Source: a virus. Taken from it: DNA of 55,743 bases. A program made the translations under genes and the position numbers. Below are positions 6,827 to 55,146 of this stretch, one piece after another; the first letter of the stretch is position 1, and each line of letters opens with the position of its first letter. The DNA lies in IMG/VR virus record IMGVR_UViG_3300020201_000023, positions 1 through 55,743 of that record; one strand, given 5' to 3'. The notes below the pieces were generated by a model. The model saw nothing but the letters and a program-made list of their open reading frames with translations, searched no databases and was not told the DNA's origin.

Positions 6827-7119
6827 AGCGGCACCTCGACAAACACGAGTTGCGGCCCCGCCTCGGCGTCAGCAGCGGTCGCGAGGCGCATCGCCAGCAC
6901 ATGCCAGAGCATGACGACGGTGACGAGGCCATGGAGTTCCTGCGCCATGTGCGGCAGGCCGGCGCGCTCGGCGTCAACGACACGCTCTGCCAGCGCGTTC
7001 GCGCTGCGCGCCGCATAACTCGCGATGTCAACAGCGATAGCCGCGCGCACGTCAGGGACGACCTGCGCCCACGCGGCGGCAAAGTCCGCGAGTTCCGCCG
7101 GCAGGTCGGCGGCGGTCAC
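6823..7119 (-). CDS. Hypothetical helical protein (98 aa)
   Basis: GTG start at 7119 chosen because it forms the GTGA overlap with the upstream stop and follows a GGTGG ribosome-binding sequence; longer in-frame starts have neither. Ala-rich helices (ELADFAAAWAQVVPDVRAAI) and a hydrophobic helix (MAQELHGLVTVVMLWHVLAM). No recognised domain. Confidence 0.72.
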   Translation of the reverse strand: MTAADLPAELADFAAAWAQVVPDVRAAIAVDIASYAARSANALAERVVDAERAGLPHMAQELHGLVTVVMLWHVLAMRLATAADAEAGPQLVFVEVPL

Positions 7120-7443: not shown

Positions 7444-7844
7444 GCGCTATCTTGCGAGTGCCCACGGGCGCTACGCTTGGGAGGGAGCGAGGCGACGGAT
7501 CACCCCCTCTTTCCCCCGAGGCTTCTACGCCTTCGAGAGAAGAGGGTGGATGCGCTGCGCCCGTGTCGGTCGCTCGGCAGACCTGCTGATCACCCGACGC
7601 ACATCCGCAGACGCACGCCGCGCACCACACTCCCTGTCTCACGGCGCCAGCAGATCTAAGCGCGCACGCGAGCGGAGCGCCGAGTCTGATTCAGCGGTCC
7701 GGTGCAGTGGTGACGTCGTGGCTATTCGGCCCGGACGTCTCTCGTCGTCCCTCATCGCTTGCGCGTAGGACGAGCGAGCCCGCGAGAGTGATGCTCCCGT
7801 CGGCTATCGAGGCCGACCCGTCCTCACTACACGACGAGCGCGCA

Positions 7845-45404: not shown

Positions 45405-45569
45405 CTACTTGCGCGCCTTCCACATCGCGAGCCCCTTTTCGAGCAGATGCCGCACCGCATCCGCCTGCGTGAACTGGATTCCGTGCGCCGACTCCATGCC
45501 GACCCGGTGCGCCTCGATTCGAGAGAGCAGCTCCGCCGATACGCGCACGGTCACTTTTTGGTCGTTCAC
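45405..45569 (-). CDS. Ribbon-helix-helix regulator (54 aa)
   Basis: GTG start at 45569, stop at 45405; too short for most gene tracks. NDQKVTVRVSAELLSRIEAH followed by GMESAHGIQFTQADAVRHLL is the strand-helix-helix order of the Arc/MetJ fold, which dimerises and binds DNA with the N-terminal strand (KVTVRV). Lies directly downstream of the fifth tRNA-minihelix element, so it may control that region. The ribosome-binding site (AAAGGCGG) is weak. Confidence 0.72.
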   Translation of the reverse strand: MNDQKVTVRVSAELLSRIEAHRVGMESAHGIQFTQADAVRHLLEKGLAMWKARK

Positions 45570-45618
45570 TCGCTACCGCCTTTCGCGCATCGTACTACAC
45601 CCGCCGCGCCCGTCCGAT

Positions 45619-45660
45619 TGGTCCGCGCACCCGGTACTTGATCCGGATGCGCGGAGTACT
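45619..45660 (-). ncRNA. tRNA-minihelix-like hairpin, element 5
   Basis: Minus-strand RNA: 12-bp stem (45643-45654 with 45623-45634, one G-U), 8-nt loop AUCAAGUA, then ACCA at 45622-45619 and AUC. On the plus strand the G-U pair would be an A-C mismatch, so the transcribed strand folds better. Preceded by AAGGGAAGUACU. Nearest to the RHH gene; no array follows it. Confidence 0.6.
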
Positions 45661-45671
45661 TCCCTTGGTTC

Positions 45672-45734
45672 GCCTTGCCGCGCCGCGCCTAGCCCGGCCT
45701 TGCCACGCCCAGCCTAGCCCGGCCGCGCCTGGCC
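45672..45734 (-). repeat. GGCNN pentanucleotide array G (13 units)
   Basis: On the plus strand NNGCC repeats in strict five-base phase; the NN pairs vary freely. Joins minihelix element 1 (right) to the GAACCAAGGG box before element 5 (left). Non-coding: TAG codons occur and no ribosome-binding site is present. Confidence 0.85.
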
Positions 45735-45739
45735 ATGAT

Positions 45740-45780
45740 TGGTCGCTGGCGGAAGCATTGAACCTCCGCCAGCGGTACTA
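45740..45780 (-). ncRNA. tRNA-minihelix-like hairpin, element 1
   Basis: 12-bp stem CGCTGGCGGAGG/CTTCCGCCAGCG (45763-45774 with 45744-45755, one G-U), 7-nt loop UUCAAUG matching the T-loop pattern, then ACCA at 45743-45740. Preceded by AAGGGUAGUACC. Confidence 0.65.
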
Positions 45781-45790
45781 CCCTTGGTTC

Positions 45791-45843
45791 GCCTTGCCAC
45801 GCCTCGCCAGGCCTCGCCATGCCACACCACGCCAAGCCTCGCC
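45791..45843 (-). repeat. GGCNN array F (11 units)
   Basis: Strict five-base period with one changed unit (ACC for GCC on the plus strand). It touches the stop codon of the gene at 45843-46346, so the array begins immediately after that gene. Confidence 0.85.
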
Positions 45844-46346
45844 TAGTCTTTCTTCTCGGGGAGTGCCGCCGGCACATCGACCGCGAGGAATTTGCGCTTG
45901 CGAACGAGCACGCTCAGCGCGCCGATCTTCGCCAACGAGTTCAGTTGCATCGCCGCCGCGCCGGCGTCGAGCTTGCTCCGGTCCACGTTCACGAGCAACG
46001 CCGCGCTCGACTTCATGCCCTTGCGCACGCTGCTCTCGAGTTTGTCGCGCCCGTGCGTGATCTGGTCCACCGGCGACAGGACTTCGTAGCCTTTGCCGGG
46101 CACGCTCTTGATGTCGATGTGGTGCTCGGTGAGCAGCGCGTTGCGCAGCCCGTCCATCTGCGAACAGTAGCGAAGCTCGAGCCGCTGATGGTCGGCTGAC
46201 GTGATGAGCTCGTCCGGCTTGGGCGTCCTGATCCGCAGTTGCGACCTCAGCCATTCGTGCGTGTAGATCGTCCCCGGCGAATGGTCGCCTTCGATGATGA
46301 TCTTCGCCACCGCAAGATAGTCCGGATAGAGTTCTGTGTCTGCCAT
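45843..46346 (-). CDS. Conserved phage protein of unknown function (167 aa)
   Basis: Strong ribosome-binding site AGGAGG before ATG at 46346. VAKIIIEGDHSPGTIYTHEW, LRIRTPKPDELITSADHQRL, LRNALLTEHHIDIKSVPGKG, then KLESSVRKGMKSSAALLVNV and VLVRKRKFLAVDVPAALPEK. The first half reads as a winged-helix-like domain. A phage family seen elsewhere next to the 190-aa protein type encoded upstream (from memory). Flanked on both sides by GGCNN arrays and minihelices. Confidence 0.8.
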   Translation of the reverse strand: MADTELYPDYLAVAKIIIEGDHSPGTIYTHEWLRSQLRIRTPKPDELITSADHQRLELRYCSQMDGLRNALLTEHHIDIKSVPGKGYEVLSPVDQITHGRDKLESSVRKGMKSSAALLVNVDRSKLDAGAAAMQLNSLAKIGALSVLVRKRKFLAVDVPAALPEKKD

Positions 46347-46387
46347 TCGCCGCCTCCTGTTGATTCGGACCCGTGTCCCCTTGGTTC

Positions 46388-46460
46388 GCCTCGCCAGGCC
46401 GTGCCACGCCTCGCCGCGCCCCGCCTCGCCCCGCCCTGCCGCGCCGTGCCCGGCCGCGCC
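46388..46460 (-). repeat. GGCNN array E (15 units)
   Basis: Fifteen NNGCC units in phase on the plus strand, between minihelix element 2 and the GAACCAAGGG box that precedes the 46346 gene. Confidence 0.85.
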
Positions 46461-46461
46461 T

Positions 46462-46504
46462 TGGCCGCCAGCGGAGGTATCGAGCCTCCGCTGGCGGGTA
46501 CTGC
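46462..46504 (-). ncRNA. tRNA-minihelix-like hairpin, element 2
   Basis: Perfect 13-bp stem (46485-46497 with 46465-46477), 7-nt loop CUCGAUA, then CCA at 46464-46462 directly after the last paired G. Preceded by AAGGGCAGUACC. The strongest of the five. Confidence 0.7.
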
Positions 46505-46513
46505 CCTTGGTTC

Positions 46514-46586
46514 GCCTTGCCTGTCCGCGCCACGCCAGACCTCGCCATGCCGCGCCTCGCCCCGCCGTGCCGAGCCTCGCCCAGCC
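46514..46586 (-). repeat. GGCNN array D (15 units)
   Basis: Starts right after the 190-aa gene; two of the fifteen units have a changed core base. Ends at the GAACCAAGGG box of element 2. Confidence 0.85.
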
Positions 46587-46591
46587 TAGTC

Positions 46592-47164
46592 CTAGATCAC
46601 CTCGAACCGTCCGAAGCGCGGACGATACTGGCCGATCCCTTCGTATTGCCCCGCCGACTTCGCGTAGTCTCGGAGCTGCTCTTCACTCACCAGCGCCGGG
46701 TCGAAGAAGAGCGGACACGACACTTCCCACTCGGGGAAGACCGCACGCGTGCGCAGCAACGCACCGCCGCCGTTGTTCTTGATCGCGCGCTTGTCGACGT
46801 AGCGGCCTGACGCCCACATCGCCTCCAGCGTGCGCGGCCCATCGTACTTGATGGCGCACTTGTCATCGACGTTCTGGATCGCGCGGTTGACCGTCATGCC
46901 CATCTTCGTCAGCTTCGCGCCGTTGCGAATGCACCGCGTGATGTTCCACCCAGGGATGAAAGGGCCGACCTTGTCGTCGAAGCTCTGCGCCATCGCCATG
47001 CGCCATTCGATGTGCTGGATCTCGAGCTTCTGGTCGTCCGACTTCTTGCGGACGTCGGTGAGCTTTTTCAGCTCGCGCGAGATGGGGTGGAACGGGTCGA
47101 GTCCCACCGTGCCAGTCGGCATCATCGGCGCAGTCCCGCGAATCTTCAGCTGCATGATTTCCAT
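46592..47164 (-). CDS. Conserved phage protein with C-terminal Gly/Arg-rich motif (190 aa)
   Basis: AGGAAGA before ATG at 47164 (a second ATG nine bases on is possible). MQLKIRGTAPMMPTGTVGLD, PISRELKKLTDVRKKSDDQK, FIPGWNITRCIRNGAKLTKM, LRTRAVFPEWEVSCPLFFDP and the ending GQYEGIGQYRPRFGRFEV mark a widespread phage family without assigned function. The terminal Gly-rich loop recalls RAMP-type RNA-binding folds, a speculative link. The gene sits between minihelix/GGCNN modules. Confidence 0.8.
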   Translation of the reverse strand: MEIMQLKIRGTAPMMPTGTVGLDPFHPISRELKKLTDVRKKSDDQKLEIQHIEWRMAMAQSFDDKVGPFIPGWNITRCIRNGAKLTKMGMTVNRAIQNVDDKCAIKYDGPRTLEAMWASGRYVDKRAIKNNGGGALLRTRAVFPEWEVSCPLFFDPALVSEEQLRDYAKSAGQYEGIGQYRPRFGRFEVI

Positions 47165-47242
47165 GTGTCGTCTTCCTGTCCGCCCGTGAGGGCCATTGCG
47201 TTGTCCGTCCTACGTCGGCCCCATGGCCCCTTGGTTCGCGTT

Positions 47243-47285
47243 GCCGGGCCGGGCCCCGCCTCGCCAAGCCCGGCCACGCCGAGCC
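47243..47285 (-). repeat. GGCNN array C (9 units)
   Basis: Nine units in phase between minihelix element 3 and the GAACCAAGGG box upstream of the 190-aa gene. Bases 47165-47242 hold that box and the gene's leader. Confidence 0.85.
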
Positions 47286-47290
47286 TCGAT

Positions 47291-47338
47291 TGGCCGACGC
47301 GCGGGGTATTGAGCCCCACGCGCCGGGTGCTTCCCTTG
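47291..47338 (-). ncRNA. tRNA-minihelix-like hairpin, element 3
   Basis: 13-bp stem (47314-47326 with 47294-47306, two G-U pairs that are A-C mismatches on the plus strand), 7-nt loop CUCAAUA, then CCA at 47293-47291 and AUC. Preceded by AAGGGAAGCACC. Confidence 0.65.
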
Positions 47339-47342
47339 GTTC

Positions 47343-47400
47343 GCCTGGCCAAGCCCGGCCCCGCCATGCCTCGCCACGCCCCGCTGCGCCAAGCCTCGCC
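47343..47400 (-). repeat. GGCNN array B (12 units)
   Basis: Twelve units in phase, one with GCT for GCC on the plus strand, between minihelix elements 4 and 3. Confidence 0.85.
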
Positions 47401-47405
47401 GTGAT

Positions 47406-47450
47406 TGGTCACCACCGCAGGTATTGAGCCCGCGGTGGCGATACTTCCCT
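47406..47450 (-). ncRNA. tRNA-minihelix-like hairpin, element 4
   Basis: 12-bp stem (47429-47440 with 47410-47421, two G-U pairs on the coding-strand RNA only), 7-nt loop CUCAAUA, then ACCA at 47409-47406 and AUC. Preceded by AAGGGAAGUAU. Upstream-most of the five in transcription order. Confidence 0.65.
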
Positions 47451-47451
47451 T

Positions 47452-47549
47452 GCCTTGCCACGCCAGGCCCCGCCCGGCCGAGCCGTGCCCCGCCGTGCCC
47501 AGCCCAGCCCAGCCACGCCTCGCCATGCCACGCCGAGCCCTGCCACGCC
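47452..47549 (-). repeat. GGCNN array A (20 units)
   Basis: Twenty uninterrupted NNGCC units on the plus strand, the longest array, starting about 60 bases after the stop of the 47608 gene and ending at a variant of the GAACCAAGGG box. On the coding-strand RNA it is GGN3 repeated, a sequence able in principle to form two-tier G-quadruplexes. Confidence 0.88.
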
Positions 47550-47607
47550 TCACTCCGACTCCAACCATCTAGCGCGTCCGCGATGCGCCGTCAAGCGCGG
47601 CTGCATC

Positions 47608-54307: not shown

Positions 54308-55146
54308 AGGACCACCCGCGGACGCTCGGGAGGCGGCGGAGCGGGCAGCGCTGACGCCCAGTTCGCGCACCACACCATCGGGTCAACCGACTTCTGCGAC
54401 GCGAGCCATCCGGCAAACGCGCGCCGGGCGACCTCGCAAGGGTTCAAGTTTTGAGCAGCCGCGAAGGACATGATATGCGCCGCGGTCTCCGCCGCTTGCC
54501 GCTGGTGATGCCGCGCCGACGGAATGCGCCATTCGGTGCCGCGCACGTCGAGCACGGCGCGCTCGAGGTCGCGGGTGTTGAAGTTGACCGCGCCCGGCTC
54601 CGGGAATCGGAGCGACTCGTCCACCACCAGCGCCAACGGCGCGATCGAAACGAGGGGTTGGGGATTGGGAAGGGAAGGGGAAGGGGAAGGGGAAGGGGAT
54701 CCCAGGGCGCGCGCGCGTGGCGGCGACTCGCGTGCGACATTTGCCGATGTCGAAAGCGAGTCGCACGCGACATCCGGCAGTGTCGCGGCAATGTCGCACG
54801 CGACATCAACATCAAGTGCCGCTCTTTTCGCTGCGATCTTCGTCCTGTCGTTCTCTTTCTTGTGTGCCCGCTGCTCTGGTGTTGGGTTCCACTTGTTGAA
54901 GTTGTGGAACCGGAAACACTCGGCCTCCTGGTGCCACAGCCCGTGCTTCACGAGCAGCGCGGCGCCCTTCATGTCGGCTTCCGGGAACACGTCGAGGGGC
55001 ACCGCGCCGTCGAGTGCCGCGTCGTCCAGGCACCACGACCACCAGTAGACCCAGACGCCAAGCGCTTCTCGGCCAGCCTTCTCTCGACGAAGCGCCCGCA
55101 CCTTTTCGTGCCGGTGAAACTTGTCGTCCATCTTCCCCCAGGGCAT
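54304..55146 (-). CDS. Replication protein, helicase-loader/initiator-like (280 aa)
   Basis: ATG at 55146 shares a base with the upstream stop (MPWGKMDDKFHRHEKVRAL). The N-terminal domain, DKFHRHEKV...ALGVWVYWWSWCLDDAALDG, VFPEADMKGAALLVKHGLWH and FRFHNFNKWNPTPEQRA, follows the winged-helix pattern of phage replisome-organiser proteins. A variable linker with SPSPSPSPSLPNPQ separates it from a C-terminal helical part. Direct coupling to the DnaB gene supports a loader role. Initiator function is an alternative. Confidence 0.78.
   Translation of the reverse strand: MPWGKMDDKFHRHEKVRALRREKAGREALGVWVYWWSWCLDDAALDGAVPLDVFPEADMKGAALLVKHGLWHQEAECFRFHNFNKWNPTPEQRAHKKENDRTKIAAKRAALDVDVACDIAATLPDVACDSLSTSANVARESPPRARALGSPSPSPSPSLPNPQPLVSIAPLALVVDESLRFPEPGAVNFNTRDLERAVLDVRGTEWRIPSARHHQRQAAETAAHIMSFAAAQNLNPCEVARRAFAGWLASQKSVDPMVWCANWASALPAPPPPERPRVVL

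Follow-up and report, generated by a model that had tools for sequence, protein, structure and literature searches.

Five hairpins that resemble the acceptor/T half of a tRNA lie between genes on the minus strand of a viral genome record of 55,743 nt (IMG/VR IMGVR_UViG_3300020201_000023, analysed as a whole and called the window here), and they raise the question of which RNA they belong to and what they do in it. A first-pass annotation, made from the letters of the DNA, took them for punctuation marks in the mRNA of an ordinary operon. This part of its reading had to be given up: the elements instead come after the guide arrays of a VIPR locus and mark the boundaries of the guides.

A VIPR locus with seven guide arrays

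VIPR (Viral Interference Programmable Repeat) is a RAMP-based system, described in 2026 as ancestral, in which DNA is bound under the guidance of GGY/NN vrRNAs; besides the Vipr protein it comprises a vap gene and the vrRNAs, which consist of 9-16 GGY/NN repeats with a structured 3' tail and read DNA with a one-base skip (main text of PMC13142463). In the window, a (GGC NN)n pentamer array, absent from the first-pass annotation, lies directly 5' of every long hairpin (Table 1). The order on the minus strand is v1-v2-v3, vipr, v4-v5, the vap1-like gene and v6-v7, and the seven arrays have 9-20 units each, with v1 lying above 16 units. Across the array-bearing loci the dinucleotide of the units is nearly free, such that all 16 dinucleotides are seen, while the commonest substitute for GGC inside the arrays is GGT, hence GGY/NN. 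The GGC-NN arrays of the window and of related loci open in several frames, giving spurious ORFs of the ARRGQARHG type, which are a likely source of false hypothetical proteins.

The profile of the protein family encoded at 46592-47164 matches PDB 36pp_D, "SUSP1 Vipr protein", with an E-value of 8e-40, and the same profile matches CRISPR Csm5 weakly. The window protein falls into phrog_4652, the family of SUSP1 Vipr, to which it is 29% identical, and the best PDB matches of its AlphaFold2 model (pLDDT 96) are Csm3/Cas7 folds (RAMPs), in line with Vipr as a RAMP-family protein of G-loop/RRM fold. The product of 45843-46346 belongs to phrog_5926, the family of the gene after vipr in SUSP1 (BLASTP against the SUSP1 gene, 8e-6). 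A TRAP-like ring protein, a candidate binder for repeats with a period of five, was dropped after the Vipr homology was found. Among 121 loci, made up of the window, L009 (a phage record of 198 kb) and viral loci retrieved by the array pattern alone, 88 encode the Vipr family; conversely, 59 of 80 loci retrieved by the protein alone carry sense GGY arrays, and the GGY runs in these 80 loci number 184 in sense and 2 in antisense orientation, with none in a Markov control. The locus was filed as VIPR because it combines a Vipr homologue, a vap1-like neighbour and GGC-NN arrays, and by homology and arrays this identity is almost certain; within VIPR it was assigned to the SUSP1/vap1 kind. The terminase is about 26% identical to those of known phages, mostly actinophages, and the phage is far from known ones.

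By analogy with SUSP1, as set out in the main text of PMC13142463, Vipr would coat the GGC repeats of the window vrRNAs, and the variable NN pairs would specify gapped DNA targets. A search of viral contigs for natural targets under the 1-nt-skip rule gave no match for v4 and v7 (11 units) and three chance-like matches for the v5 core, in which the four remaining units are mismatched, while v7 (10 units) had one chance-like match in genomes, in a Clostridiales MAG with the next unit mismatched. Re-derivation of the skip rule inside the retrieved loci gave no signal. Elsewhere in the window, a 54-aa protein is encoded just downstream of v7 (45405-45569) with a weak match to the phage transcriptional repressor family phrog_4738, and a short GGGAAG hexamer repeat of 5.7 copies lies at 54667-54699.

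Table 1. Predicted features of the VIPR locus in the window.
Feature	Position	Strand	Details or basis
vipr gene, RAMP/Cas7-like predicted guide-RNA-binding protein, 190 aa	46592..47164	-	profile, PHROG, model
vap1-like accessory gene, 167 aa	45843..46346	-	phrog_5926, BLASTP
vrRNA v1 guide array, 20 GGC-NN units	47450..47549	-	
v1 hairpin	47406..47441	-	12 bp 47410-47440, loop CUCAAUA, ACCA 47406-47409
vrRNA v2 guide array, 12 units, one imperfect	47341..47400	-	
v2 hairpin	47291..47326	-	12 bp 47295-47325, loop CUCAAUA, GCCA
vrRNA v3 guide array, 9 units, final unit ahead of vipr	47241..47285	-	
v3 short tail, 4-bp hairpin GGCC-AUGG-GGCC	47217..47228	-	sequence
vrRNA v4 guide array, 14 units, one GGT and one GGA	46517..46586	-	
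v4 hairpin	46462..46497	-	12 bp 46466-46496, loop CUCGAUA, GCCA
vrRNA v5 guide array, 15 units, final unit ahead of vap1	46386..46460	-	
v5 short tail, 4-bp hairpin GGAC-ACGG-GUCC	46367..46378	-	identical AAGGGGACACGGGTCCGAAT in L009
vrRNA v6 guide array, 11 units, begins within vap1 stop codon	45789..45843	-	
v6 hairpin	45740..45775	-	12 bp 45744-45774, loop UUCAAUG, ACCA
vrRNA v7 guide array, 13 units, cluster-terminal	45670..45734	-	
v7 hairpin	45619..45655	-	12 bp 45623-45654, 8-nt loop AUCAAGUA, ACCA

Geometry of the long hairpins

All five minus-strand hairpins that the first-pass annotation had listed within 45619-47450 were found in place. Its stem length of 12-13 bp agrees with 12 unbroken pairs counted from the loop in every hairpin and a thirteenth possible in four of the five, its count of six G-U pairs was reproduced, and CCA indeed follows directly 3' in all five, where the base before it, left open as N, is a purine (R-CCA). 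The loops share the core UCRA (U55 C56 R57 A58), while positions 54 and 60 deviate from the T-loop UUCRANY, such that U54/Y60 is absent. The helices begin with C+1-G72 and not with the usual G, and no helix contains a D-loop-like insert with GG. Immediately ahead of the stem the hairpins have the lead-in AAGGGNAGYA in common, which is extended to CCAAGGG in four and GCAAGGG in the fifth; neither this lead-in nor the two array ends with a 4-bp hairpin (47217-47228 and 46367-46378) figure in the first-pass annotation. A search of viral contigs with the exact lead-in GGCGAACCAAGGGNAGTA gave three matches, taken as chance. No tRNA or tmRNA gene was found in the window with ARAGORN and Rfam, and an Rfam search with the hairpins themselves matched no family.

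When 45560-47600 was shuffled with preservation of dinucleotides and scored for hairpins of at least 12 bp with a loop of 6-8, the mean was 0.05 and the maximum 2 in 200 shuffles, compared with 5 observed, which rules out a chance origin. At the same threshold and with G-U allowed, one of the five hairpins is detected on the plus strand, since G-U turns into A-C there. Strong hairpins within non-coding RNA could be RNase III sites or, lying between genes, attenuators or terminators; however, no U-tract stands 3' of any of them, CCAAU or CCAAG comes next in all five, and an intrinsic terminator was rejected. Helices of 12-13 bp are short substrates for RNase III, and neither function needs a conserved loop and CCA, so that both are most unlikely here.

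Selection on the RNA and relatives of the hairpin

L009, the Vipr of which is 73% identical to that of the window, has the same array order, two long hairpins and short tails, and both of its long hairpins keep 12 bp followed by R-CCA. One further hairpin, with CTA instead of CCA, is found in a prophage-like contig (L140). In the alignment of these eight hairpins (five from the window, two from L009 and one from L140), 94.8% of the cells are paired and double-sided changes occur in 11 of 13 pairs, while the covariation score is 0.734, as compared with 0.264 for shuffled alignments and 0.09-0.14 for slid structures, although part of this signal stems from the way the hairpins were chosen, since five of the eight come from the list of the first-pass annotation, to which those of L009 and L140 do not belong. 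The covariation supports the earlier proposal that selection acts on the structure of the RNA. A covariance model recovers these eight and gives nothing else convincing in about 1.5 Mb of other loci, so that the window form of the hairpin is rare.

Fuller tRNA mimics in other VIPR loci

The comparison with a tRNA acceptor/T minihelix, which the first-pass annotation had drawn, is strengthened by unrelated VIPR loci that hold fuller acceptor/D-loop/T-arm mimics at the position of the hairpin. These have an acceptor of 5-7 bp, an insert of 9-12 nt, a T-stem of 6-7 bp and the loop UUCRANY, and their carriers are mainly actinophages, those identified being MakoManhole, LittleE, Trine and prophiBWHA-1. 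They are interspersed in the vrRNA arrays (L132 1650-3142, L133 4749-6390, L224 3872-4933, L186 3779-3919 and others), with 19 near arrays, all in sense orientation, in 157 kb as against 7 in 2.16 Mb elsewhere, and several of these 7 themselves sit in VIPR loci. GG stands in the insert of all 27 distinct fuller elements, mostly at positions 4-5, without having been asked for in the search; GG is what a D-loop requires for docking on the T-loop in the elbow (PMC4810234). Stem covariation is very strong over 18 ungapped copies, in which pairing was itself a selection criterion. An Rfam search of the fuller elements returned no family and no tRNA or tmRNA match, and what did match in their loci were miRNA models with low scores, which were put down to chance. 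The window elements lack the insert but carry R-CCA, which the fuller ones are without; judged by position, helix length and loop core, which both have in common, they are a reduced form, a term that does not imply descent. Other recurrent spacer hairpins stand in the arrays of L111 (3330-4252), L024 and L041, e.g. GGTCAAGGTAAGGCGAG...CTCGC... and ACACACTGCATCTC..., and are possibly further tail types.

Both R-CCA and the acceptor/T geometry would also suit hairpins that remain uncleaved and recruit tRNA-binding proteins (EF-Tu, the CCA-adding enzyme or a synthetase) or act as tRNA decoys, since several proteins of this sort bind minihelices or act on them (PMC11221534). However, the CCA of the window hairpins is internal and followed by AAU, so that 3' processing would be needed first to free it, and a position at the boundaries of guide arrays suits processing or tail roles better; we consider recruitment very improbable.

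Placement along the arrays

In the window and L009, units with another unit after them carry the long hairpin in six of six cases, while cluster-terminal units carry a short 4-bp tail in five of six, the exception being v7 with its long hairpin (Fisher exact p about 0.008, calculated by hand and indicative only, because the copies are related). The short tails covary between the window and L009, where they lie at about 6940-6951 and 7535-7546, and AAGGGGACACGGGTCCGAAT, which closes the last L009 array, is identical to the v5 tail. Furthermore, most of the other loci with tRNA-like elements have none between the last array and vipr. With such a pattern, a role at boundaries or in processing is more likely than that of a tail required by every guide. 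In other VIPR loci (L138-L150, L081), the lead-in AAGGGTAGTACC or AAGGGAAGTACC is seen without a long hairpin at array ends that adjoin vipr or another ORF.

The hairpin could nevertheless be retained as a permanent structured 3' tail of the vrRNA, which protects the end and docks Vipr/Vap, so that the tRNA likeness would be incidental and other nucleases would mature the guides. Indeed, according to the main text of PMC13142463 the vrRNAs of SUSP1 keep an invariable structured tail, which stays in the mature vrRNA of about 100 nt; the window hairpin stands exactly at the tail position, and the CCAAGGG lead-in is also present in the short-tailed units. By contrast, the stem sequences vary, R-CCA at exactly 12 bp is left unexplained, and the last units ahead of vipr and vap1 carry a 4-bp tail instead, which indicates that the 12-bp helix is dispensable on some guides. 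Inspection of the window tails by eye revealed no pseudoknot of the SUSP1 type. On balance, we think a permanent tail rather doubtful, though a serious candidate.

A possible route of guide separation

RNase P uses 12 bp as a ruler and RCCA as an anchor, and accepts hairpins of acceptor, T-stem and T-loop as substrates (PMC11143913, PMC11221534). From the likeness of the window elements to tRNA ends, the phage may cut its guides apart by means of the tRNA-processing machinery of the host. Host enzymes would recognise the tRNA-like minihelices at the 3' boundaries of the vrRNAs, RNase P would cut at the 5' side of the helix and tRNA 3'-end enzymes would act at the CCA, and the tandem transcript would thereby be cut into single vrRNAs. 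We infer the cleavage, as well as the enzymes assigned to it. Several features run counter to such processing, namely the missing insert, the absence of U54/Y60, C+1-G72, the lack of an Rfam match and the long hairpin on v7. In four of the five hairpins N-1 is able to pair with N73, so that the cleavage site of RNase P can shift. The statement as a whole, that a VIPR locus carries tRNA-like boundary elements for tRNA-type processing of its vrRNA arrays by the host, has in our judgement an even chance of being right. The wider proposal of a class of VIPR arrays with tRNA-like guide separators in fuller and reduced forms, released by host RNase P and tRNA 3'-end enzymes, is put forward tentatively, at a little under even.

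Comparison with known systems

If true, tRNA-like spacers across many phage loci would offer a concrete route of guide maturation that dispenses with a nuclease of the phage, and would be a counterpart in nature of the tRNA-spaced guide arrays engineered for genome engineering. As covarying RNA elements they also serve as a marker in the annotation of VIPR loci, the arrays of which otherwise surface as spurious repeat-peptide ORFs. The tRNA-like domain of tmRNA consists of an acceptor, a D-loop without a D-stem and a T-arm. The fuller elements, mainly of actinophages, share this plan; unlike tmRNA, they are much shorter, occur in many copies inside guide arrays and match no tmRNA or tRNA family of Rfam. 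The model substrates of RNase P (PMC11143913, PMC11221534) resemble the window hairpins in their stacked helix of 12 bp, a 7-nt loop with the T-loop core and R-CCA, whereas the window hairpins, as putative substrates, differ in C+1-G72, in non-canonical positions 54 and 60 and in their natural setting among the guide arrays of a phage.

Within VIPR, the arrays in the main text of PMC13142463 are single, tandem, staggered or interspersed with hammerheads; this main text treats the separation of tandem guides through the hammerhead arrays only, together with sRNA data for a few systems, and nowhere mentions hairpin, tRNA, RNase P or CCA. The hammerhead-interspersed arrays are alike in that a structured RNA between tandem vrRNAs could separate them; there it is a self-cleaving ribozyme, while the tRNA-like element of the window would rely on host enzymes. 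With type II VIPR of SUSP1, as presented in the same main text, the window shares the Vipr and vap1 families, GGY/NN arrays flanking vipr, the viral genome, several vrRNA units and a structured element at their 3' ends. The tails of SUSP1, however, are pseudoknots, while the window has a T-arm-like minihelix of 12 bp with R-CCA and, ahead of vipr and vap1, a separate short tail.
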